From assembly GCF_003590645.1 (NCBI RefSeq), contig NZ_CP031834.1, forward strand, positions 4,402,501-4,466,500: a stretch of DNA of 64,000 nt. Direction: 5' to 3'. Shown piece after piece: positions 5,398 to 58,736 of the stretch. The DNA is from Mesorhizobium sp. DCY119. Lineage in GTDB: Bacteria; Pseudomonadota; Alphaproteobacteria; Rhizobiales; Rhizobiaceae. Under the pieces are notes generated by a model that saw only the letters and a list, made by a program, of their open reading frames with translations, was not told the origin of the DNA and did no database searches. Numbering within the stretch: position 1 is the stretch's first letter; each line of letters begins with the position of its first letter. The position numbers were made by a program, and so were the translations under genes.

Positions 5398-6714
5398 ATG
5401 GCAAGCCTTTACGAGCGCGACGCCGCCGCGATCTCAAAAATGTCCTTCCTGCGCTTCTTCCCGCAGGCGGTGGTTGGCGGCGAAGGGTCTTATCTAATCG
5501 GCGACGACGGGCGTCGGCTTCTCGACCTCTCCGCGTCCTGGGGAACTGCCGGCCTCGGCCATTCGCACCCAGCGGTACGCGAGGCGGTCAACAAAGCGCT
5601 GGAAAACCAGGCAGGAGCCAGCCTGCTGTCAACGGCAAACCTGCCCTCGGTCGAACTCGCCGAGAAACTTCTGTCGATCGTGCCGAAGCGCGCCGCCGGC
5701 CGCGTCTGGCTCGGCCATTCCGGCTCGGACGCCAACGAGACGGTCGCACGCGCGGTGATCGCTGCGACCGGCAGGCCGCGCATCCTCGCCTTCAACGGCG
5801 CCTATCATGGCGGCACGTCAGGCTCGATGGCGATTTCGGGTCATCCGGCACAGCAGGGTGTCGCCAAGGCCGCAGGGCTGACGCTGATCCCCTACCCCAA
5901 TGCCTATCGCGACGGCGGCGAGGAACAGGCCGAAGCAACAGCCATCGACCATCTCGAAAAGCTGTTTGCCGGGCCGGTGCCGCCGAATGAGGTCGCCGCG
6001 CTGTTCATCGAGCCGATCCAGTCGGATGGCGGCATGGTGGTGCCGCCGCAGAACTATTTCAAGAAAGTCGAGGCGCTCTGCCGCCAGCACGGCATCCTGC
6101 TCGTCTGCGACGAGGTCAAGGTCGGGCTTGGGCGCAGCGGGCGCCTGCACTGTTTCGAGCATTTCGGCATCGAGCCGGATATCATCGTCTTCGGCAAGGG
6201 CCTTGGCGGCGGACTGCCGATCTCGGCAGCGGTCGGACCCACCGAGATCATGAACCACAGCGCCGCCTTCTCATTCCAAACGGTGCACGGCAATCCCGTC
6301 TGCGCGGCAGCCGCACTCGCCGTGCTGCAGACCATCGAGCGCGACAATCTCGCAGCCAACGCCGCTGAGGTCGGACAGTACCTGATGGGCGGGCTGGAAC
6401 GCCTGAAGCAGAAGCACACAATGATCGGCGACATACGCGGGCGCGGGCTTGCCATCGGCGTCGAACTGGTCACCGACCGCATGAGCAAGACGCCGGCTAG
6501 GCGCGAAACGGCGCTGACCGTCTACCGTGCCTTCGAGCTTGGCCTGGTCCTCTATTATGTCGGCGTCAGCTCCAACATTCTGGAGTTCACGCCGCCGCTG
6601 ACGCTGACAAAGGCGGAAGCGGACAGCGGCCTCGACATGCTTGACCGAGCGCTGTCCGACGTTGCCGACGGCCGCGTCGACCCGGCCGTTCTTGCCGCCT
6701 TCGAGGGCTGGTAA
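5398..6714 (+). CDS. Class III pyridoxal-phosphate aminotransferase
   Basis: A 438-residue fold-type I aminotransferase of the omega-amino/4-aminobutyrate class. Asp238 (LVCDEVKVGLGRSG) should contact the PLP ring nitrogen and Lys267 (VFGKGLGGGLP) form the Schiff base. Substrate-loop sequence reads FIEPIQSDGG where GABA aminotransferases usually have QGEGG, so the substrate may differ. ATG 5398 follows CGAGGGAAG; the longer upstream frame overlaps the hydrolase and is rejected. Last gene of the liv operon, ending 6 bases from the convergent dehydrogenase. Confidence 0.88.
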   Translation: MASLYERDAAAISKMSFLRFFPQAVVGGEGSYLIGDDGRRLLDLSASWGTAGLGHSHPAVREAVNKALENQAGASLLSTANLPSVELAEKLLSIVPKRAAGRVWLGHSGSDANETVARAVIAATGRPRILAFNGAYHGGTSGSMAISGHPAQQGVAKAAGLTLIPYPNAYRDGGEEQAEATAIDHLEKLFAGPVPPNEVAALFIEPIQSDGGMVVPPQNYFKKVEALCRQHGILLVCDEVKVGLGRSGRLHCFEHFGIEPDIIVFGKGLGGGLPISAAVGPTEIMNHSAAFSFQTVHGNPVCAAAALAVLQTIERDNLAANAAEVGQYLMGGLERLKQKHTMIGDIRGRGLAIGVELVTDRMSKTPARRETALTVYRAFELGLVLYYVGVSSNILEFTPPLTLTKAEADSGLDMLDRALSDVADGRVDPAVLAAFEGW

Positions 6715-6720
6715 GCCCTT

Positions 6721-7971
6721 TTACGCTACCGGCAAAAGCCCCTGCGGTTCGATGTCCGGCTTCCGCCCGGCAACGATATCGGACAGGAATTTCCCGGAAC
6801 CGCAGGCCAGCGTCCAGCCGAGATGGCCGTGGCCGGTGTCGAAATAGAGATTGCCGTAGCGGGTCTTGCCGATGACCGGCACCGAGTTCGGCATCATTGG
6901 GCGCAGGCCGGTCCAGCATTCGGCCTTGCTCTCATCGATCGCGCCGGGAAACAGCTCGCGCGCGGTGCCGAACATGCGCTCGAAATCGGCCGGCTTGTGG
7001 CTGCGGTCGAAGCCGGCGAACTCGGCTGTCGAAGCAAGCCGGATGCGATTGCCGAGCCGGGTAAAGACGACATAGCGCTCCTCATCAACGCTGCCCATGG
7101 TCGGCCCGTTGTCCGGGTCTTTCAGTTCCATGGTCGCCGTATAGCCCTTCACCGGATAGATCGGCAGGTCGAGCCCGAGCGTGCGGGCAAAGACCCCACT
7201 TTCCGGACCCATGGAGAGAACCGCTGCGTCGCAGGGGATCGAACCCTTGGCGGTCTTCACGGCGCTGACCCGATCGCCGGAGAATTCCAATCCCGCGACG
7301 TTGGTGTCGTAAAGGAACTTCGCGCCGTGCCGTTCGCTGGCGTAGTCGGCGAGCCGCGTCGTGAACAGCTGCGAATCGCCGGTCTGGTCCATCGGCGAAT
7401 AGATGCCGCCGGCGATCCTGTCGCCCGAATTCGCCAGCCCCGGCTCGATTTCGAACAGGCGCTTGCGGTCCACGACTTCGATTTCCAGCCCACGCTCCCC
7501 GATATAGCTGAAGTGCTCCACACCCCCGTCGAGCCCTTGCTGCGAGCGGTAGAAATAGACGATGCCCTTGCGGCGCTCGTCGAAATCGATGCCGGTTTCC
7601 GAGGTGATTTCGTTGATGCATTCGCGCGAATAGAGCGCCAGCCTGAGCTTCACGTTGGTGTTGGCGTTGGCCCGCGCCTGCGTGCATTGCTGGAGGAACC
7701 GCCAGGTCCAGGACAGAAAGGCTGGATCGAGGCTCGGACGGATCTTTATGCCCAGCTCCGGCTTGTAGAGCGATTTCAGGAACGTTTTGAGCGCTCCGGG
7801 TGAGGCCCAGGCATAGGCGTCTCCGGGCGAGACGAAGCCGGCATTGCTGTAGCTCGTGCCGTTGGCGGGGGCCGGATGGCGCTCGACAACGGTCACTTGA
7901 TGGCCATCGCGGGCGAGATAATAGGCCGCAGCCGTGCCGACCACGCCCGCGCCAAGAACCACGATCTTCAT
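6721..7971 (-). CDS. dadA: D-amino acid dehydrogenase small-subunit-like FAD oxidoreductase
   Basis: A 416-residue DAO-family flavoprotein. The N-terminus KIVVLGAGVVGTAAAYYLA is the FAD dinucleotide-binding motif, followed by VVERHPAPANGTSYSNAG as in DadA, and the C-terminal GHGHLGWTLACGSGK closes the FAD site. DadA enzymes deaminate D-amino acids to 2-oxo acids and pass electrons to the respiratory chain. ATG 7971 is chosen over the frame's earlier start (8028) because it places the beta strand of the FAD motif at residue 2. It converges on the liv/aminotransferase operon and diverges from hemA; a role in the same amino acid catabolism is inferred from position only. Confidence 0.85.
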   Translation of the reverse strand: MKIVVLGAGVVGTAAAYYLARDGHQVTVVERHPAPANGTSYSNAGFVSPGDAYAWASPGALKTFLKSLYKPELGIKIRPSLDPAFLSWTWRFLQQCTQARANANTNVKLRLALYSRECINEITSETGIDFDERRKGIVYFYRSQQGLDGGVEHFSYIGERGLEIEVVDRKRLFEIEPGLANSGDRIAGGIYSPMDQTGDSQLFTTRLADYASERHGAKFLYDTNVAGLEFSGDRVSAVKTAKGSIPCDAAVLSMGPESGVFARTLGLDLPIYPVKGYTATMELKDPDNGPTMGSVDEERYVVFTRLGNRIRLASTAEFAGFDRSHKPADFERMFGTARELFPGAIDESKAECWTGLRPMMPNSVPVIGKTRYGNLYFDTGHGHLGWTLACGSGKFLSDIVAGRKPDIEPQGLLPVA

Positions 7972-49396: not shown

Positions 49397-50122
49397 TCAC
49401 TTCGCCGAGATTTCCACCGGCAGCACGACCTTGTCGGTCTTGTCTTCCTTGGGACGGTCGATCGGCATCTGGTCGCCGGTGACGACGTAATAGATCGTCT
49501 CGGCGATGTTGGTGGCGTGGTCGCCGATGCGCTCGATGTTCTTGGCGCAGAACAGGAGATGCGTGCAGGGTGTGATGTTGCGCGGGTCTTCCATCATGTA
49601 GGTCAGGAGCTCGCGGAACAGCGACGTGTACATGGCGTCGATCTGATTGTCGCGGGCGCGCACGAATTCGATGCGCTCGACCGAGCGCGAGGCATAGACG
49701 TCCAGCACTTCCTTGAGCTGCGTCAGTGCCAGTTCGGCCAGCGCCTGCAGGCCGCGAAACAGGCTTACGGGCTGGCGGCCTTCCGAAACCGCCACCACGC
49801 GCTTGGCGACGTTCTTGCCGAGATCGCCGACGCGCTCGAGATCGGCTGAAATGCGGATCGCGCCGATGATTTCGCGCAAATCCCCGGCCACTGGTTGGCG
49901 CTTGGCGATAAGCACGATCGACTTGTCGTCGATCTCGCGCTGGGCTTCGTCGAGGATGGTGTCGTCGGCGATGACCTTCTTGGCCAGTGCCAGATCCGCA
50001 TTGACGAGTGCCGCGATCGCCTGATCGACAAGGCGCTCGGCCTGGCCGCCCATCGCCGCAACCTTGCGGGTCAGGTATTTCAGCTCGTCGTCATAGGCAC
50101 TGACAATGTGGTGCGACTGCAT
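49397..50122 (-). CDS. phoU: Phosphate signalling complex protein PhoU
   Basis: A 241-residue all-helical protein with two PhoU repeats (ISADLERVGDLGKNVAKR and FCAKNIERIGDHATNIAETIYY, the metal-binding E-R-x-G-D motifs). It links the Pst transporter to PhoR and restrains phosphate-starvation signalling. In many rhizobia phoU follows pstB and precedes phoB; here neither flanks it: corA follows and a ClC channel gene diverges upstream. Confidence 0.95.
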   Translation of the reverse strand: MQSHHIVSAYDDELKYLTRKVAAMGGQAERLVDQAIAALVNADLALAKKVIADDTILDEAQREIDDKSIVLIAKRQPVAGDLREIIGAIRISADLERVGDLGKNVAKRVVAVSEGRQPVSLFRGLQALAELALTQLKEVLDVYASRSVERIEFVRARDNQIDAMYTSLFRELLTYMMEDPRNITPCTHLLFCAKNIERIGDHATNIAETIYYVVTGDQMPIDRPKEDKTDKVVLPVEISAK

Positions 50123-50333
50123 GAAGGTCCATCTCTCTTCGGAACCGGCAAATCACGATCCCTGAATCCATGCATATAGGCTAACGACATGACGGAAAAA
50201 AGAAAGCTTGGATTGGCGGCACGCTGACGCCACAATTCGGGCTGATAGCGCCTGCGCGAGGGGTCCGGAAACATCGTCTCCAACGAGCAGCGGTTATTAT
50301 TTTAGCCGGCGCGCAAAGTGGTCTAGCGTTCCC

Positions 50334-52163
50334 GTGACGTCCATCCTCTTGACTGCAAAAGGCCGCGCGGTGTTCCACGGCACGATCACAAAGCTCCTTT
50401 CCTCCTGGAAGAACCGCGCGCAAGTTCACACGGCGCTGCACCTTCTCAACGCGCGCGGCATAGCCGTCGTCGGCGTGGCCTGCGTCGTCGGAGCGCTGGC
50501 GGCGGTGACTGTCACGGCGATGAGCTGGATCGTTCAGGAAATGCACTGGCTGCTTTTCGGGCTGGAGCGCGGCGCGCGGCTGTCGGCCATGTTTTCGCTG
50601 TCCAGCTCTTCCCAGGCGCTGGTGCCGATCATGGGCGGCGTGCTGCTCGGGCTGACGATCGCCTATCTCCGCCGCCGGCAATATCGCACGCCGATCGATC
50701 CGATCGAGGCCAATGCGCTCTATGGCGGAAGGCTGTCGGCCACGGACACCGCCATCGTCGCCGTGCAGACGATCATCTCGAGCGGCTTCGGCGCGTCGGT
50801 CGGGCTTGAGGCGGCCTATACCCAGAGCGGTTCGGGGCTGGCGTCCCGGCTGGCCCGCATTCTGCGGCTGCGCCGCAATGACGTCAGGATACTGGTGGGA
50901 TGCGGCGCGGGCGGCGCTATTGCCGCTGCCTTCGGCGCGCCGTTGACCGGCGCGTTCTACGGTTTCGAGCTTATCATCGGTGTCTATTCCGTCGCCAATG
51001 TCGCGCCGGTGATGGCAGCCGCCGTCACCGCCTCGCTGACGGCGAGCTATCTCGGCGGCGCGCAATTTCCCATCGAAGTCGGCCCCGTGCCGGCGATGAC
51101 GGCCATGCAGTATCTGCCCTATCTGCTGCTGGGCTTTCTGGCGGGTGCTGCGTCTATCGCCATCATGCAACTTGTGACGGTCGTGGAGAAGGGTTTTTCA
51201 CGGCTATCCATCGACGCAGCACTGCGTCCGGCGATCGGCGGGTGCCTGATCGGCGCACTGGCCCTGATCACGCCTCAGGTGCTTTCGAGCGGCCATGGCG
51301 CGCTGCATCGCGAACTGGCGATGAATTACGGCCTCTATGTCGTCGCCGAACTCTTCGTCCTCAAGCTGATCGCATCTGCCGTATCGCTGGGCTCGGGGTT
51401 TCGCGGCGGCCTGTTCTTCGCTTCGCTGTTCCTCGGCGCGCTGCTCGGCAAGATCTTTGCCGAGGCGATGATTTTCCTGCTCCCGCAAACCGGGGTCGAT
51501 CCGATGATCGCGGCCGTCGTCGGCATGACCTCGCTCGCCGTCGGCGTCGTCGGGGCACCGTTGACCATGACATTCCTGGCGCTGGAATCCAGCGGCAACC
51601 TCGCGCTCACCGGCGTTGTTCTCGGGGCATCGATCGTTTCGGCGGTGCTGGTGCGGGAGACCTTCGGCTACTCCTTCTCGACCTGGCGGTTCCATCTGCG
51701 CGGCGAGACGATCCGAAGCGCCCATGACGTGAGCTGGACGCGCAACCTGACCGTCGAGCGCATGATGCGCGAGGACGTTCGCACCTTGCCCGACACAACC
51801 ACGATCGAGGAATTCCGCAAGCAGGTCCCGCTGGGTGCGGCACAGCGCGTGATCGTCACCGACGCCGACAAGAAATATGCCGGGATGCTGCTTGTCGCCG
51901 AAGTCTACGGCCTCGATGCAAGCGTTGAAGCGGAAACCCAATCCATTCGCACGCTGGCGAAATATCAGGACACGCTTCTGGTGCCGTCCATGAACGTCAA
52001 GGCGGCGGCGGATATCTTTGCCCGGTCGGGCAGCGAGGAATTACCGGTCGTCGACAACTTCGCCAACCGCCGGGTGGTCGGGCTTTTGACCGAGGCCCAC
52101 CTGCTGCGCCGCTATGCCGAGGAACTGGACAAGGCGCGCAAGGATCTTTCAGGCGAAAGCTGA
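50334..52163 (+). CDS. ClC-type chloride channel/antiporter with CBS domains
   Basis: About 609 residues: a ClC membrane domain (roughly 40-440) and a C-terminal CBS pair (about 475-600). SGFGASVGLEAAYTQSGSG contains the likely gating glutamate in place of the common GREGP context; GCGAGGAIAAAFGAPLTGAFYGFELI and SGFRGGLFFASLFLGALLGK line the pore; GAPLTMTFLALE follows. Probable chloride/proton exchange under acid or ionic stress. Start is uncertain: GTG 50334 is chosen, while TTG 50208 would add 42 unusual residues. Confidence 0.82.
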   Translation: MTSILLTAKGRAVFHGTITKLLSSWKNRAQVHTALHLLNARGIAVVGVACVVGALAAVTVTAMSWIVQEMHWLLFGLERGARLSAMFSLSSSSQALVPIMGGVLLGLTIAYLRRRQYRTPIDPIEANALYGGRLSATDTAIVAVQTIISSGFGASVGLEAAYTQSGSGLASRLARILRLRRNDVRILVGCGAGGAIAAAFGAPLTGAFYGFELIIGVYSVANVAPVMAAAVTASLTASYLGGAQFPIEVGPVPAMTAMQYLPYLLLGFLAGAASIAIMQLVTVVEKGFSRLSIDAALRPAIGGCLIGALALITPQVLSSGHGALHRELAMNYGLYVVAELFVLKLIASAVSLGSGFRGGLFFASLFLGALLGKIFAEAMIFLLPQTGVDPMIAAVVGMTSLAVGVVGAPLTMTFLALESSGNLALTGVVLGASIVSAVLVRETFGYSFSTWRFHLRGETIRSAHDVSWTRNLTVERMMREDVRTLPDTTTIEEFRKQVPLGAAQRVIVTDADKKYAGMLLVAEVYGLDASVEAETQSIRTLAKYQDTLLVPSMNVKAAADIFARSGSEELPVVDNFANRRVVGLLTEAHLLRRYAEELDKARKDLSGES

Positions 52164-52348: not shown

Positions 52349-53074
52349 ATGCTGAATGCACACAGCGAATTGCTCGACTTCATCGAGCGGGCAGAGAGAC
52401 ACCCCTCGATGTCTCTCCTCGTCGACGACTTTTCCCAGGTCATCGACCGGCAGGGCTTCAACGCTTTCATCATGACCGGCCTGCCTTCGGCCGGCATCGA
52501 CGTCGAGCCGATGGTCATCGCCAACCATTGGCCGGAAGCCTGGTCCGATCGTTACAGGGAGCAGGTGTATTTTCCCGACGATCCGGTCTCGAAATGGTCG
52601 ATCACCAAAGACCGGCCTTTCCATTGGCGGGAAGCCTGGAACGCGTTTCCCGTCAGCAAGCGCGTCCAGCAGCTGAACGGCGAGGCCGCTGCTTTTGGCC
52701 TGGTCGACGGCATCGCCTTCCCGCTGCGAACCGCCAGAAGGTGGCAGGCGGTCGTGTCGCTTGCCAGCCACCACAGGATGGACATCGACAAGAAGGACGA
52801 AGGCCTGCTCTACTGCGCCGCCGTCTATTTCCAGATGGCCGCAAATGACCTGGCGTCCCAGAAGGCCCCTCCGCCTCCGACCTTGAGCGACAGGGAGCAG
52901 GAAATCCTGAAATGGGCTGCGGCCGGCAAGACCGCCTGGGAGATATCGACCATCCTCAATATTTCCGAGGCGACGACGCGCACCCACCAGCGGCATATCA
53001 ATGCAAAGCTGGATACCGCCAACACAACCCAGGCGGTCATGGAAGCAATCAGGCAACACATTATTCACGTGTAG
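52349..53074 (+). CDS. LuxR-family acyl-homoserine lactone receptor/regulator
   Basis: A 241-residue LuxR. Residues equivalent to all TraR ligand contacts are in register with a constant offset of eight: Trp65, Tyr69, Asp78, Pro79, Trp93. C-terminal helix-turn-helix TLSDREQEILKWAAAGKTAW, EISTILNISEATTRTHQRHI covers about 177-225. ATG 52349 follows AGGAACGGCA. It precedes a LuxI synthase by 89 bases in the same direction and should respond to that enzyme's signal. No convincing lux-box palindrome found in the nearby gaps. Confidence 0.93.
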   Translation: MLNAHSELLDFIERAERHPSMSLLVDDFSQVIDRQGFNAFIMTGLPSAGIDVEPMVIANHWPEAWSDRYREQVYFPDDPVSKWSITKDRPFHWREAWNAFPVSKRVQQLNGEAAAFGLVDGIAFPLRTARRWQAVVSLASHHRMDIDKKDEGLLYCAAVYFQMAANDLASQKAPPPPTLSDREQEILKWAAAGKTAWEISTILNISEATTRTHQRHINAKLDTANTTQAVMEAIRQHIIHV

Positions 53075-53163
53075 ATTGCCGGTCAATCATCGATTCCGAC
53101 GATAGCTGACAGGCCCGTTACGGTTCATCCTTCTGCGAGAATCAACCGCAGGGGGTAGTAGCC

Positions 53164-53829
53164 GTGCAAATCCACGTCGTGAATGCCGCAAACCGTCACC
53201 TCTATACCGCCGAACTCGAAGACTTCTTTCGTGCCCGTCACGCCATCTATGTCGAAGAAAAGCAATGGCGCGAGGACGACGGGAGCGGCATGGAAATCGA
53301 CCAGTTCGACACCGATGAAGCCACCTACATGATCGGGATCGTTGACGACCAGGTCATGACCGGAACCCGGCTTCTGCCGACGACCGAACCGCATATGCTG
53401 AGCGAGGTGTTTCCGCACAGCTGCAACTTCACCGGCGTCCCGCGGCAACCGGACGTCGCCGAATGGACGCGCGGCTTCATCGTGCCTTCCTTCCGCGAAA
53501 AGGGCCACGGCCCGATCAAGGGCCAGTTCTGCGGAACGGTCATGGAATACTGCCTGAACGAAGGCATCACCCGCATCGGCGGTATTCAGGACCTGTATTG
53601 GCTGCCGCTGTGGAAGCGGTTCGGCTGGACGGTGCGACAGATCGGAAATCCTATTCTGATCGACGACCGCTGGTGTGTCGCCGCCTATTTCGACGTCACG
53701 CAGGAAGCACGCGACCGCGCGCTCGCCAGGGGCAATCTCGACCATTCCATTCTGGTGCATCGCGGCCCCTACGAGCCGTTCATGCAGCAGTTCAGCTCGA
53801 GCCGGACAGGAGGCGCTCGTGCAGCTTAA
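53164..53829 (+). CDS. Acyl-homoserine lactone synthase (LuxI family)
   Basis: A 221-residue LuxI-type enzyme. Residues equivalent to the invariant set are present: Arg25, Trp35, Asp46, Asp49, Arg69, Glu100, Arg103; Tyr29 replaces the usual Phe. EIDQFDTDEATYMIGI and the overall pattern resemble BjaI/RpaI/BraI synthases, which use branched or aryl acyl-CoA rather than fatty acyl-ACP; this is inference from recalled similarity. GTG start at 53164 after AGGGGG. Overlaps the next gene by 11 bases. Confidence 0.92.
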   Translation: MQIHVVNAANRHLYTAELEDFFRARHAIYVEEKQWREDDGSGMEIDQFDTDEATYMIGIVDDQVMTGTRLLPTTEPHMLSEVFPHSCNFTGVPRQPDVAEWTRGFIVPSFREKGHGPIKGQFCGTVMEYCLNEGITRIGGIQDLYWLPLWKRFGWTVRQIGNPILIDDRWCVAAYFDVTQEARDRALARGNLDHSILVHRGPYEPFMQQFSSSRTGGARAA

Positions 53830-54292
53830 AATGGGACAACACGAACACGGGGGGCACCCGGTGCGGCACCGGAACGGATCTCGGGCAGCACTCGCCAACA
53901 CCGGGTACAACGACGATCTGGCGGTGCCCGAAATGCCCCGCAAGGAATATTTCGCTCAGTTCGTGAGCGAACTACGAAAGGAGATGCAAGCAGCCCGCGC
54001 AGAGGAGGCGCGGCTGCTTCAGGCGGACAAGGCGCATATTTCCGGAGGCGGCAGCCTCCGGAAAACGCCGAGCGGAACCGACTACATCCTGTGGGGCAGG
54101 ATCGGCACAGGCGGTGTGCCAGATCTGCTCAACCGTATCGACGACGACATAGAAAGGTGCCGCGAGCCGGTCATCATTACCGGCACGGCCTTCTCCACCC
54201 GATACCGGTTCAGCCGCTGGCTTCTGCGCAACGGTCACATCGCGCGAGCCGATCTCGGCGAAGATGGTTTGGTGGTCGCGAAATCGGCTTAG
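53819..54292 (+). CDS. Unknown protein translationally coupled to luxI
   Basis: A 157-residue soluble protein without signal peptide or membrane segment. GTG 53819 lies inside the luxI end, with AGGAGG at 53808-53813 placed five bases upstream, so coupling is strong; ATG 53831 is an alternative. Features: basic/His-rich N-terminus (MGQHEHGGHPVRHRNG), helical KEYFAQFVSELRKEMQAARAEEARL, then a compact segment SGTDYILWGRIGTGGVPDLL, EPVIITGTAFSTRYRFSRWLLRNGH. No family recognised. Co-expression points to signal synthesis, processing or response. Confidence 0.75.
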   Translation: MQLKMGQHEHGGHPVRHRNGSRAALANTGYNDDLAVPEMPRKEYFAQFVSELRKEMQAARAEEARLLQADKAHISGGGSLRKTPSGTDYILWGRIGTGGVPDLLNRIDDDIERCREPVIITGTAFSTRYRFSRWLLRNGHIARADLGEDGLVVAKSA

Positions 54293-54376: not shown

Positions 54377-54406
54377 TCCGGCGGCGGATGTCATTCCGCC
54401 GCCGGA
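54377..54406. terminator. Strong hairpin overlapping the phoR stop codon
   Basis: TCCGGCGGCGGA (54377-54388) and TCCGCCGCCGGA (54395-54406) form a perfect 12-bp stem with 6-base loop TGTCAT, which contains the complement of the phoR TGA. It sits between convergent orf157 and phoR and may end both transcripts, but there is no T-run. Confidence 0.55.
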
Positions 54407-55668
54407 AAATGCACCGTGAAGGCCGCACCCTCGCCCAGCTTCGAGCGGATCGACAGGCGGGCGTTGTGACGTGTCAGGATATGCTTGACGATGGAAAGGC
54501 CGAGGCCCGTGCCTTTCTGCGAACGGCTGGTTTCCACATCCACCCGGTAGAAACGCTCGGTCACGCGCGGAATGTGCTCTTCGGGAATGCCGGGACCGAA
54601 ATCCCGTATCGTAACCGTAGTTTCACGCTCGGCATTCGTGTCCGGGCCGGCGATCGAGACGACGACACGGCCGCCCGACGCGCCATACTTGCACGCGTTT
54701 TCCAGCAGGTTCTCGAAGACCTGGAACAGTTCGTCGCGATCGCCCAGCGCCTCGAAAATGCCGGCGGGGAAATCGCGCTCGACGGTGACGCCGGACTCCC
54801 TGGCCAGCGGGCTGAGGGAATCGATGACGCTTTCCACCACACCGCGCAGGTCGACTTTAACGCCGGGCCGCAGATGCGACTTCATCTCCAGCCGCGACAG
54901 CGACAAAAGGTCGTCAATCAGCCGGGCCATGCGCGCGGTCTGGTTCTGCATGATCTGCAGGAAATGATCGCGTGCCTTGGCGTCGTCGCGCGCCGGGCCG
55001 CGTAGCGTCTCCACAAAACCCGAAATGGAAGCCAGCGGCGTACGCAGCTCGTGGCTGGCATTGGCGATGAAATCAGCCCGCATGCGGTCGATGCGGCGCG
55101 TCTCGCTCTGGTCCTTGAACACCATGACATAGAGGCCTGTGCCCCTTCCGACGGCAGACGCGGTGACGCGAAAGACGCGTTCGATCGGCACGCGCTCGAT
55201 GAAGTCGATCTGGCGCGACGCGGCATGGCCGAACAGCACGGCCTGTATCATCTCCTGCATTTCCGGCGCGCGGAATTTCAGCAGCAGCAGGATGCCGGGG
55301 CGCAGCGCCCCGAAAGCGTTGACGGCGGCATCATTGGCATGAACGACCGCGCCGGCTCCGTCGAAGACGATCAGCGGGTCGGTGACGGCGGCGGCCAGGT
55401 TCTCGCCCGAGAGGCCGCGCGTGCCACCATTGGCGGTCTCCTCGGCCTCGGTGGCGAGCAGCCCCGCCGTGCGGCTGGGCGCAAGGCCCGCCACGACGAT
55501 CAGCGCGCCCACCACGGCAGCGACCGTCCGGGTGTCGCCGCCTGCCCAGATGTGGACGGCAAGCACGGCTGCGATGGCTGCGGCCAGCATCCAGCGATTC
55601 TGGCGAAACCGGTGGGCAACCAGCCGCATCGCGCGGCGTATCCATTGTTCGCGGCCTTGATCGCTCAT
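54391..55668 (-). CDS. phoR: Phosphate-regulon sensor histidine kinase PhoR
   Basis: A 425-residue kinase: two N-terminal membrane helices (MLAAAIAAVLAVHIWAG and VAAVVGALIVVAGLA), a PAS domain (VTDPLIVFDGAGAVVHAND), HisKA with NASHELRTPLASISGFVETL, and ATPase motifs FENLLENACKYG, DFGPGIP, GTGLGLSIVKHI. The PAS plus short membrane anchor and FVETL/ARMARLIDDLLSLSRLE pattern fit PhoR. Normally it heads a phoR-pst-phoU-phoB cluster in rhizobia, but pst genes are absent here; it is divergent from ppk2. Confidence 0.88.
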   Translation of the reverse strand: MSDQGREQWIRRAMRLVAHRFRQNRWMLAAAIAAVLAVHIWAGGDTRTVAAVVGALIVVAGLAPSRTAGLLATEAEETANGGTRGLSGENLAAAVTDPLIVFDGAGAVVHANDAAVNAFGALRPGILLLLKFRAPEMQEMIQAVLFGHAASRQIDFIERVPIERVFRVTASAVGRGTGLYVMVFKDQSETRRIDRMRADFIANASHELRTPLASISGFVETLRGPARDDAKARDHFLQIMQNQTARMARLIDDLLSLSRLEMKSHLRPGVKVDLRGVVESVIDSLSPLARESGVTVERDFPAGIFEALGDRDELFQVFENLLENACKYGASGGRVVVSIAGPDTNAERETTVTIRDFGPGIPEEHIPRVTERFYRVDVETSRSQKGTGLGLSIVKHILTRHNARLSIRSKLGEGAAFTVHFPAAE

Positions 55669-57467: not shown

Positions 57468-58736
57468 GTGAAGAAGAGATTGACCGCCGTAGTCCTTGCA
57501 TCACTTCAACCGAAGGCGAGCGGCTATTACGTGTCCGACAATCAGCAGACGGGCTTGCGTGTTCGGGTAGCACCATCAGGTATTCTCACCTGGAATCTCG
57601 TCTACCGGATAAAGGGTGAGCCGGCTGCAAAGAGTGCTTCGCTCGGTGTGTGCGATCCAAACGGGAAGAATGGGCTCGGGTTGCAAGAAGCTCGCGAAAG
57701 GGCTGCCGAAATCATAAAGGCGGCTCGCCAAGGCCGGGACCTCCTGGAAGAAGAAGACGAAGCACGGAAAGCCAAACAAGAGCGGCTTACCGTGAAAGAG
57801 CTAATCGGGCGCTACGCCAAACACATCAAGAGCCCTCACCGTAAAGGTGGTGCCCTCCGCACCGCCGATGACATAGAACGTCGGTTGAAGCGGGCATTGC
57901 GCACGAAGTTTCACAGCGCCGCCGACGGCCTTCGACGTAGCGATGTAAGTGACCTACTCGAACCTGTTGCAGACGGTCGCCCGCGCGAAGCTGAAAAGCG
58001 CAGGCAGGTCATTGGCGCGATGTATCGTTGGGGTCTGGCGAAAGGCTATGTAACGACCGACCCCACAGCCGGCACAGAATCGTATGGCAGGGGTGATCCA
58101 CGAAACCGAGTGCTGTCGCCTGACGAGATGAAAACCCTCTGGGACTGGATGGATGCCGGAGCTGATGGAATGACGCCCGACTGCATCGCGGTCCTTCGCG
58201 TGCAATTATGCACCGGGGCGCGGGTCGGAGAAATCGCCAGCATGGACGCATCCGAGATTGAGGATGACGGCGAACGGCTGCTTTGGACGCTTCCCGCCGA
58301 ACGCTCCAAGAACAAGAGCGAGCGCGTCACCCCATTGGTCGGGCTTGCCCGGGAAATCATCCTGGAAGCCTACGAAAGGCGTAAACGCGGATCGTTGTTC
58401 ATAGCTGCCAAATCCGAGCGGGCATTACGTTCAACCGACCTCGGCCATGCGCTCAAAAATCGCGATTTGCCATGCAAGCATTTCACCACCCACGATCTGC
58501 GACGTACGGTGGTCAGCGGTATGGACGAAATGGGTATCGCGCTCGATACCATCGCCGCCGTCGTCGGCCATCAACGCGGAACGAAGGACACGCGCACGTT
58601 GGTTCAACATTATAGCCGCCCACGCCTTAACGAGCGCGTCGAGGCGGCATTGACGTCTTGGGATGCCCGTTTGCGGGGTGTCATTGAAGGCCTAAAGGAA
58701 CAGCCGGGCGACAATTTGGTGAGGTTGCACGGATAG
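57468..58736 (+). CDS. int: Tyrosine recombinase/integrase (P4-type)
   Basis: A 422-residue integrase: N-terminal DUF4102-like arm-binding domain (VSDNQQTGLRVRVAPSG), core-binding domain (about 105-195) and catalytic domain with Arg in LCTGARVGEIASMD, His-x2-Arg in FTTHDLRRTVVSG, VVGHQRG and nucleophile Tyr382 (QHYSRPRL). GTG 57468 start. It should insert and excise the element that continues to the right window edge. Base composition and codon use are less GC-biased from here onward. Confidence 0.93.
   Translation: MKKRLTAVVLASLQPKASGYYVSDNQQTGLRVRVAPSGILTWNLVYRIKGEPAAKSASLGVCDPNGKNGLGLQEARERAAEIIKAARQGRDLLEEEDEARKAKQERLTVKELIGRYAKHIKSPHRKGGALRTADDIERRLKRALRTKFHSAADGLRRSDVSDLLEPVADGRPREAEKRRQVIGAMYRWGLAKGYVTTDPTAGTESYGRGDPRNRVLSPDEMKTLWDWMDAGADGMTPDCIAVLRVQLCTGARVGEIASMDASEIEDDGERLLWTLPAERSKNKSERVTPLVGLAREIILEAYERRKRGSLFIAAKSERALRSTDLGHALKNRDLPCKHFTTHDLRRTVVSGMDEMGIALDTIAAVVGHQRGTKDTRTLVQHYSRPRLNERVEAALTSWDARLRGVIEGLKEQPGDNLVRLHG

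Follow-up and report, generated by a model that had tools for sequence, protein, structure and literature searches.

A LuxR-LuxI locus of Mesorhizobium sp. DCY119 and orfX, a candidate accessory gene that overlaps luxI

Known luxI-adjacent genes and the layout of the locus

CinS of Rhizobium leguminosarum and MmaP of Methylobacterium are small proteins which, in the excerpts cited here, are described as co-transcribed with luxI and as binding PraR (PMC4149787, PMC5977203, PMC10790750). In M. japonicum, the crotonase gene mlr5639, located 8 bp after I1, is stated in the cited part of the report to be needed for the signal; the same part indicates that the CoA-using LuxI subgroup can be sorted by bioinformatics and that one of its members makes an unusual signal (PMC10470506). 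The passage cited for BCAM1871 presents this gene as co-transcribed with cepI, enhancing AHL activity and confined to Burkholderia (PMC3356288).

The locus analysed here lies in a window of 64,000 nucleotides (Table 1). Like cinS and mmaP, orfX directly follows luxI on the same strand; however, OrfX has 157 amino acids whereas 59 are given for MmaP in the cited part of PMC10790750, and we liken it to them by gene position and description. The R1-I1-crotonase circuit of M. japonicum resembles the window in combining luxR-luxI, a third gene and a LuxI of the acyl-CoA clade, but OrfX, unlike mlr5639, gave no crotonase match at E<=1 in Pfam or NCBIfam, and its gene overlaps luxI by 11 nt instead of following after an 8-bp gap. 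BCAM1871 is, like OrfX, a lineage-restricted hypothetical protein encoded behind luxI, and is reported in the cited passage to modulate quorum sensing (PMC3356288). The hosts are, however, unrelated bacteria, and the two proteins are likened by description. RsaM, a quorum-sensing regulator which we presume to be similar in size to OrfX, is likewise luxI-adjacent and without known relatives; it has four tryptophans, whereas OrfX has two and no match among PDB sequences.

Table 1. Features of the locus, in window coordinates
Feature	Position	Strand	Description
phoU	49397-50122	-	PF01895; flanks the block on the left
ClC-type chloride channel gene (clc)	50208-52163	+	with CBS domain; PF00654, E 9.8e-65; first gene in the phoU-phoR block
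luxR	52349-53074	+	autoinducer-binding and GerE HTH regulator, 241 aa
luxI	53164-53829	+	acyl-homoserine-lactone synthase, BjaI/RpaI side of the family, 221 aa, GTG start
AGGAGG Shine-Dalgarno site	53808-53813	+	within luxI; 5-nt spacer to the orfX GTG; read from the sequence
orfX	53819-54292	+	orphan gene, 157 aa, GTG start, 11-nt overlap with luxI
phoR-like histidine kinase gene	54391-55668	-	HisKA, HATPase_c; right flank; named by synteny

The luxI frame closes with TAA at 53827-53829, and the histidine kinase gene is convergent with orfX. About 3 kb past orfX, positions 57468-58736 of the window encode a phage-type tyrosine integrase with an Arm domain, which possibly marks the edge of a mobile element.

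The LuxR-LuxI pair and its genomic setting

The complete LuxR-LuxI pair claimed by the original prediction is borne out at the same coordinates. LuxR carries PF03472 (E 5.8e-23) and PF00196 (E 1.2e-17) in the expected order, with LasR as best PDB match (3.1e-21), and LuxI matches PF00765 (E 2.7e-23), the Pfam matches of both proteins lying well over their cut-offs. The predicted W65, Y69, D78, P79 and W93 of LuxR are present, at what we take to be the TraR contact positions. The invariant Arg/Trp/Asp/Glu set of the synthase is also retained: of the 48 synthases in the alignment, 47-48 share R25, W35, D46, D49, R69 and R103, while 46 have E44 and 45 have E128. Palindromes upstream of luxR and luxI scored no better than shuffles in the search for a lux box. 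PF00765 and PF03472 each match once at E<=0.001 in the genome, a single contig of 4.84 Mb, which thus has a single quorum circuit; with one synthase and one receptor by Pfam, single deletions would show what the signal is and what the coupled gene does. The M. zhangyense genome (G104) carries a second luxI elsewhere, 34% identical.

Against the PDB, LuxI scored best with BjaI (8.2e-43, 150 bits) and RpaI (1.1e-37, 133 bits), followed by 6wns (129 bits); these BjaI and RpaI scores are 73-117 bits above those of TofI (60), EsaI (38) and LasI (33). In a tree of 48 rows, of which three were labelled acyl-ACP and three long ones flagged, LuxI grouped with BjaI and RpaI, apart from TraI/TofI, on supported branches (97/86, and 98/93 for the group of 40 rows). 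BjaI and RpaI do not form one clade against the window LuxI, which sits in a supported subclade of seven rows of its own, together with the pAtS4b and pAtG3_79b synthases. The cited part of PMC8188788 links acyl-CoA preference to two tryptophans, W146 and W147 of RpaI. Where RpaI has Trp-Trp, the window LuxI has Tyr145-Trp146, keeping an aromatic-Trp pair with the second Trp; the aligned pair is Phe-Trp in 6wns, Arg-Phe in TraI and Ser-Met in TofI. By grouping, LuxI belongs to the acyl-CoA-type clade; its use of acyl-CoA is not certain, since the pair is Tyr-Trp and not Trp-Trp.

The block clc-luxR-luxI-orfX sits between phoU and phoR in both the DCY119 genome (G000) and G104. Of 26 phoR loci outside the genus, 7 (L043, L044, L045, L046, L051, L053 and L058) have phoU directly after phoR, at most about 200 nt away, as does L073; at L064 it lies about 1 kb away, and the other 18 gave no phoU match within the 1.5-kb flank of phoR. 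No clc match was found in the phoR loci outside the genus. The block was probably acquired as a unit by the ancestor of both species. It is possible that local rearrangement, not acquisition, explains its position, since at L073 (G267) a luxI of 46% identity and a luxR are found on the opposite side of the same phoR-ppk2 region.

Coding constraint and distribution of orfX

The predicted 157-residue protein indeed starts 11 bases inside luxI behind AGGAGG. We place its start at the GTG at 53819 because of this Shine-Dalgarno site; the frame is open upstream as far as a GTG at 53675 inside luxI. Length by itself is weak evidence for a gene, as 74 of 2000 dinucleotide shuffles gave an ORF of at least 157 codons from the same start, and 2 of 200 reached the orfX length in a second test restricted to closed ORFs. 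The conservation at codon level takes orfX beyond chance. Compared with the M. zhangyense orthologue, dN is 0.016, dS 0.147 and dN/dS 0.107 (luxI 0.068 and luxR 0.059 for the same species pair), estimates of constraint that rest on these two sequences. From codon 5 on, 21 of 459 bases differ, 15 of them at third positions (p 0.0004), and the changed codons comprise 14 synonymous and 5 non-synonymous ones. The changes are unevenly distributed: in residues 71-157 all 12 changed codons are synonymous, whereas in residues 5-70 this holds for 2 and the other 5 alter the amino acid (Fisher p 0.0018). Every one of the other five frames contains stop codons; in four of them the differences would mostly change amino acids, and one antisense frame shows 10 synonymous to 9. 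orfX is thus a real protein gene, and the comparison of the two sequences would place the working part of the product in its C-terminal half.

The original prediction had named structure prediction and profile search as ways to place OrfX. The profile searches gave an answer, no recognised family, as had been claimed, but two AlphaFold models (mean pLDDT 50.7 and 47.5) were too poor to use. The sole Pfam match at E<=1, to the reovirus guanylyltransferase domain PF21063 (E 0.11; 12.1 bits, with the cut-off at 27), was taken as chance. Neither NCBIfam nor the PDB sequences gave any match at E<=1, and the two weak PHROGs matches, phrog_32597 (E 0.076) and phrog_5940 (E 0.2), were not significant. 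Among the matches listed in the literature search, the portions of text retrieved held no description of orfX. The N-terminus has many His and Arg residues (window positions 53840-53884, HEHGGHPVRHRNGSR) and might possibly bind metal or nucleic acid.

OrfX was present in both genomes of its genus examined, G000 and G104. In the family sample (394 genomes) these two were accompanied by a weak match in G212, which has E 5.9e-4 and an internal stop and was treated as chance. The order sample (397 genomes) gave the own genome only, besides G522 at E 0.0096, and the class sample (385 genomes) the own genome and five weak matches at 1e-3 to 1e-2, a limit at which about four are expected by chance. 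G522 and these five were likewise treated as chance. The three samples overlap, so that the distinct genomes number fewer than their sum of 1176. The weak-match loci L005, L037 and L087-L090 (about 3 kb each), which cover four of the five class matches, the fifth having given no locus, contained no luxI or luxR match. OrfX was not found in plasmids at E 0.01, in phages at E 1, or in viral contigs scanned with two N-terminal peptide patterns only, and a GTDB contig scan that detects close relatives only returned M. zhangyense alone. On these searches orfX is a genus-level orphan, so far in two species only; its conservation therefore cannot indicate signal chemistry, and the conserved luxI neighbourhood that the original prediction had looked to is largely absent beyond these two species.

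The synthase itself is more widespread, with LuxI matches at 1e-30 in 39 of the 394 family genomes. The next nearest chromosomal luxI genes (L009 and L010, 61-64% identical) are both without orfX. In its place each has another ORF overlapping luxI, of 82 codons at L009 and 73 at L010; ORFs as long as these arose in 30 and 26 of 200 shuffles. Downstream of the nearest plasmid synthases (L038 and L039), at distances of 76 and 71 nt, proteins of 145 and 146 aa are annotated; the one at L038 has weak, sub-threshold HTH matches and a frame open back into luxI.

Candidate roles of OrfX

The reading we prefer, tentatively and at somewhat less than even chances, is that the quorum circuit is of the acyl-CoA type and was acquired, and that its co-translated accessory protein is a regulator, which would act like CinS and MmaP without membership in their families being implied. 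LuxR and LuxI would work in the usual way of their families. To judge from the overlap and the Shine-Dalgarno site, ribosomes finishing luxI would re-initiate at the orfX GTG, so that synthesis of OrfX would keep pace with that of the synthase and the amount of OrfX would track cell density. OrfX would then most likely be a small regulatory partner protein whose conserved C-terminal half binds another protein of the cell. As for CinS and MmaP, the target might be a PraR-type repressor encoded beside metK: the genome has, in this order, an HTH_3 gene, metK and a gene that, judged by eye, would encode a methyltransferase, which is the praR order given in the cited part of PMC10790750, and the HTH_3 gene is thus a putative praR.

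The coding constraint on OrfX, the placement of LuxI, the position of the block and the praR-like gene speak for this reading, and so does the recurrence of genes coupled to luxI. We compared 37 distinct luxI loci, the own locus and that of G104 among them. In 23 of these, an ORF of at least 55 codons starts between 29 nt before and 10 nt after the luxI end, a length that shuffles often reach there. More tellingly, in 11 of the 37, partly close relatives, the longest ORF near the luxI stop begins at exactly a 4-nt overlap; three of these ORFs have 42-45 codons and another has 31. A conserved family of 70-77 aa with the core LLKIQ and YLI-MARME (motifs LLKIQ.LLA.AY and YLI.MARME) accounts for five of the 11 (L015, L017, L019, L020 and L027, genus g47). 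Against the reading stand the lack of sequence similarity between OrfX and these coupled proteins, its greater length, the poor structure models, the Tyr-Trp pair of LuxI, the outcome of the lux box search and the arrangement at L073.

Alternatively, OrfX might be an effector under quorum control, or a housekeeping orphan riding in the operon, in which case the coupling would set the dose only. We regard this as rather unlikely, and the genes found behind luxI in relatives are what speaks for it. GNAT acetyltransferase genes stand directly behind luxI or a short way downstream at L032 and L036 (by Pfam) and at L030, L034 and L035 (by eye), all in the synthase branch that holds 6wns. Since unrelated genes, namely those for HTH proteins, GNATs and small helical proteins, occupy the slot in relatives, it serves many functions. 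Against a mere passenger stands the fact that the overlap and AGGAGG are identical in M. zhangyense, a weak point because both are also luxI coding sequence.

The original prediction had called OrfX a good candidate for a new signalling accessory, on the ground that genes fused to luxI by translation sometimes modify the signal. That it helps to make or change the signal, by supplying or selecting acyl-CoA for LuxI or by binding LuxI, appears improbable to us. The grouping of LuxI in the acyl-CoA clade, where substrate supply can require a dedicated gene, would fit such a role, as would the crotonase gene after I1 that M. japonicum needs for its signal according to the cited part of PMC10470506, and co-translation would suit a partner in a complex. 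Nevertheless, no enzyme family is matched significantly, the PF21063 match being sub-threshold, and orfX was not found beside luxI outside the two species, so the modifier proposal finds no specific support. The closest chromosomal luxI relatives do without orfX, so that synthases of this type have no general requirement for it. A regulatory partner is favoured over a modifier because of precedent and the lack of significant enzyme similarity.

That orfX has no function, being spurious or recently arisen by overprinting, is very unlikely. The orphan status, the shuffles that reach its length and the relaxed look of residues 5-70 would agree with it, but the purely synonymous changes in residues 71-157, the third-position excess and the behaviour of the other five frames speak against it. 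Least credible of all is an RsaM-group regulator diverged past recognition by sequence, for which the presumably similar size, the position next to luxI and the mostly about 25% identity of RsaMs from different genera (cited part of PMC10710839) could be adduced, since OrfX has W92 and W134 only and so no Trp quartet, a feature missing in rare RsaMs by the same account, and no PDB match at E<=1, in a search that may miss 25% identity. For the RsaM fold, in which two helices are surrounded by an antiparallel sheet of five strands, the AlphaFold models of OrfX were too poor to give an answer.

A bolder version, which we consider unlikely, is that OrfX is a new, lineage-specific LuxI partner setting the choice of signal, or else an antirepressor whose fold differs from that of CinS. 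As a LuxI partner it would bind the synthase or the acyl-CoA supply and set which signal is made. It is among synthases of the acyl-CoA type that unusual signals have turned up.

The coupled 70-77 aa proteins of the relatives are possible CinS-like antirepressors in their own right. The one member scanned, from L015, had no Pfam match above cut-off. The family profile found no member in the DCY119 genome and matched 8 of 199 genomes, with two known members and six weak matches, near which (about 3 kb each) no luxI was found. Profile comparisons did not support OrfX as a relative of these proteins (HMM E 1.9, hhalign probability 0.2%); it is about twice their length.

The luxI loci surveyed also suggest that, in this clade, co-translated accessory genes are gained and replaced at the position after luxI; if so, it would be a predictable place to find new quorum-sensing modulators. 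Other neighbours of luxI were also seen. At L070, whose luxI is about 61% identical to that of the window, a T6SS Tle1-like lipase gene (5691-6884) lies about 0.8 kb downstream of luxI. At L079 (1748-2050, pAtEML4) the gene for a GerE-only HTH protein of 100 aa overlaps luxI by 50 nt. XRE-type HTH genes follow soon after luxI at L024 (2450-2677) and L011 (2418-2756); the latter stands behind a coupled 75-aa ORF, and L011 might possibly represent a luxI-antirepressor-repressor cassette.
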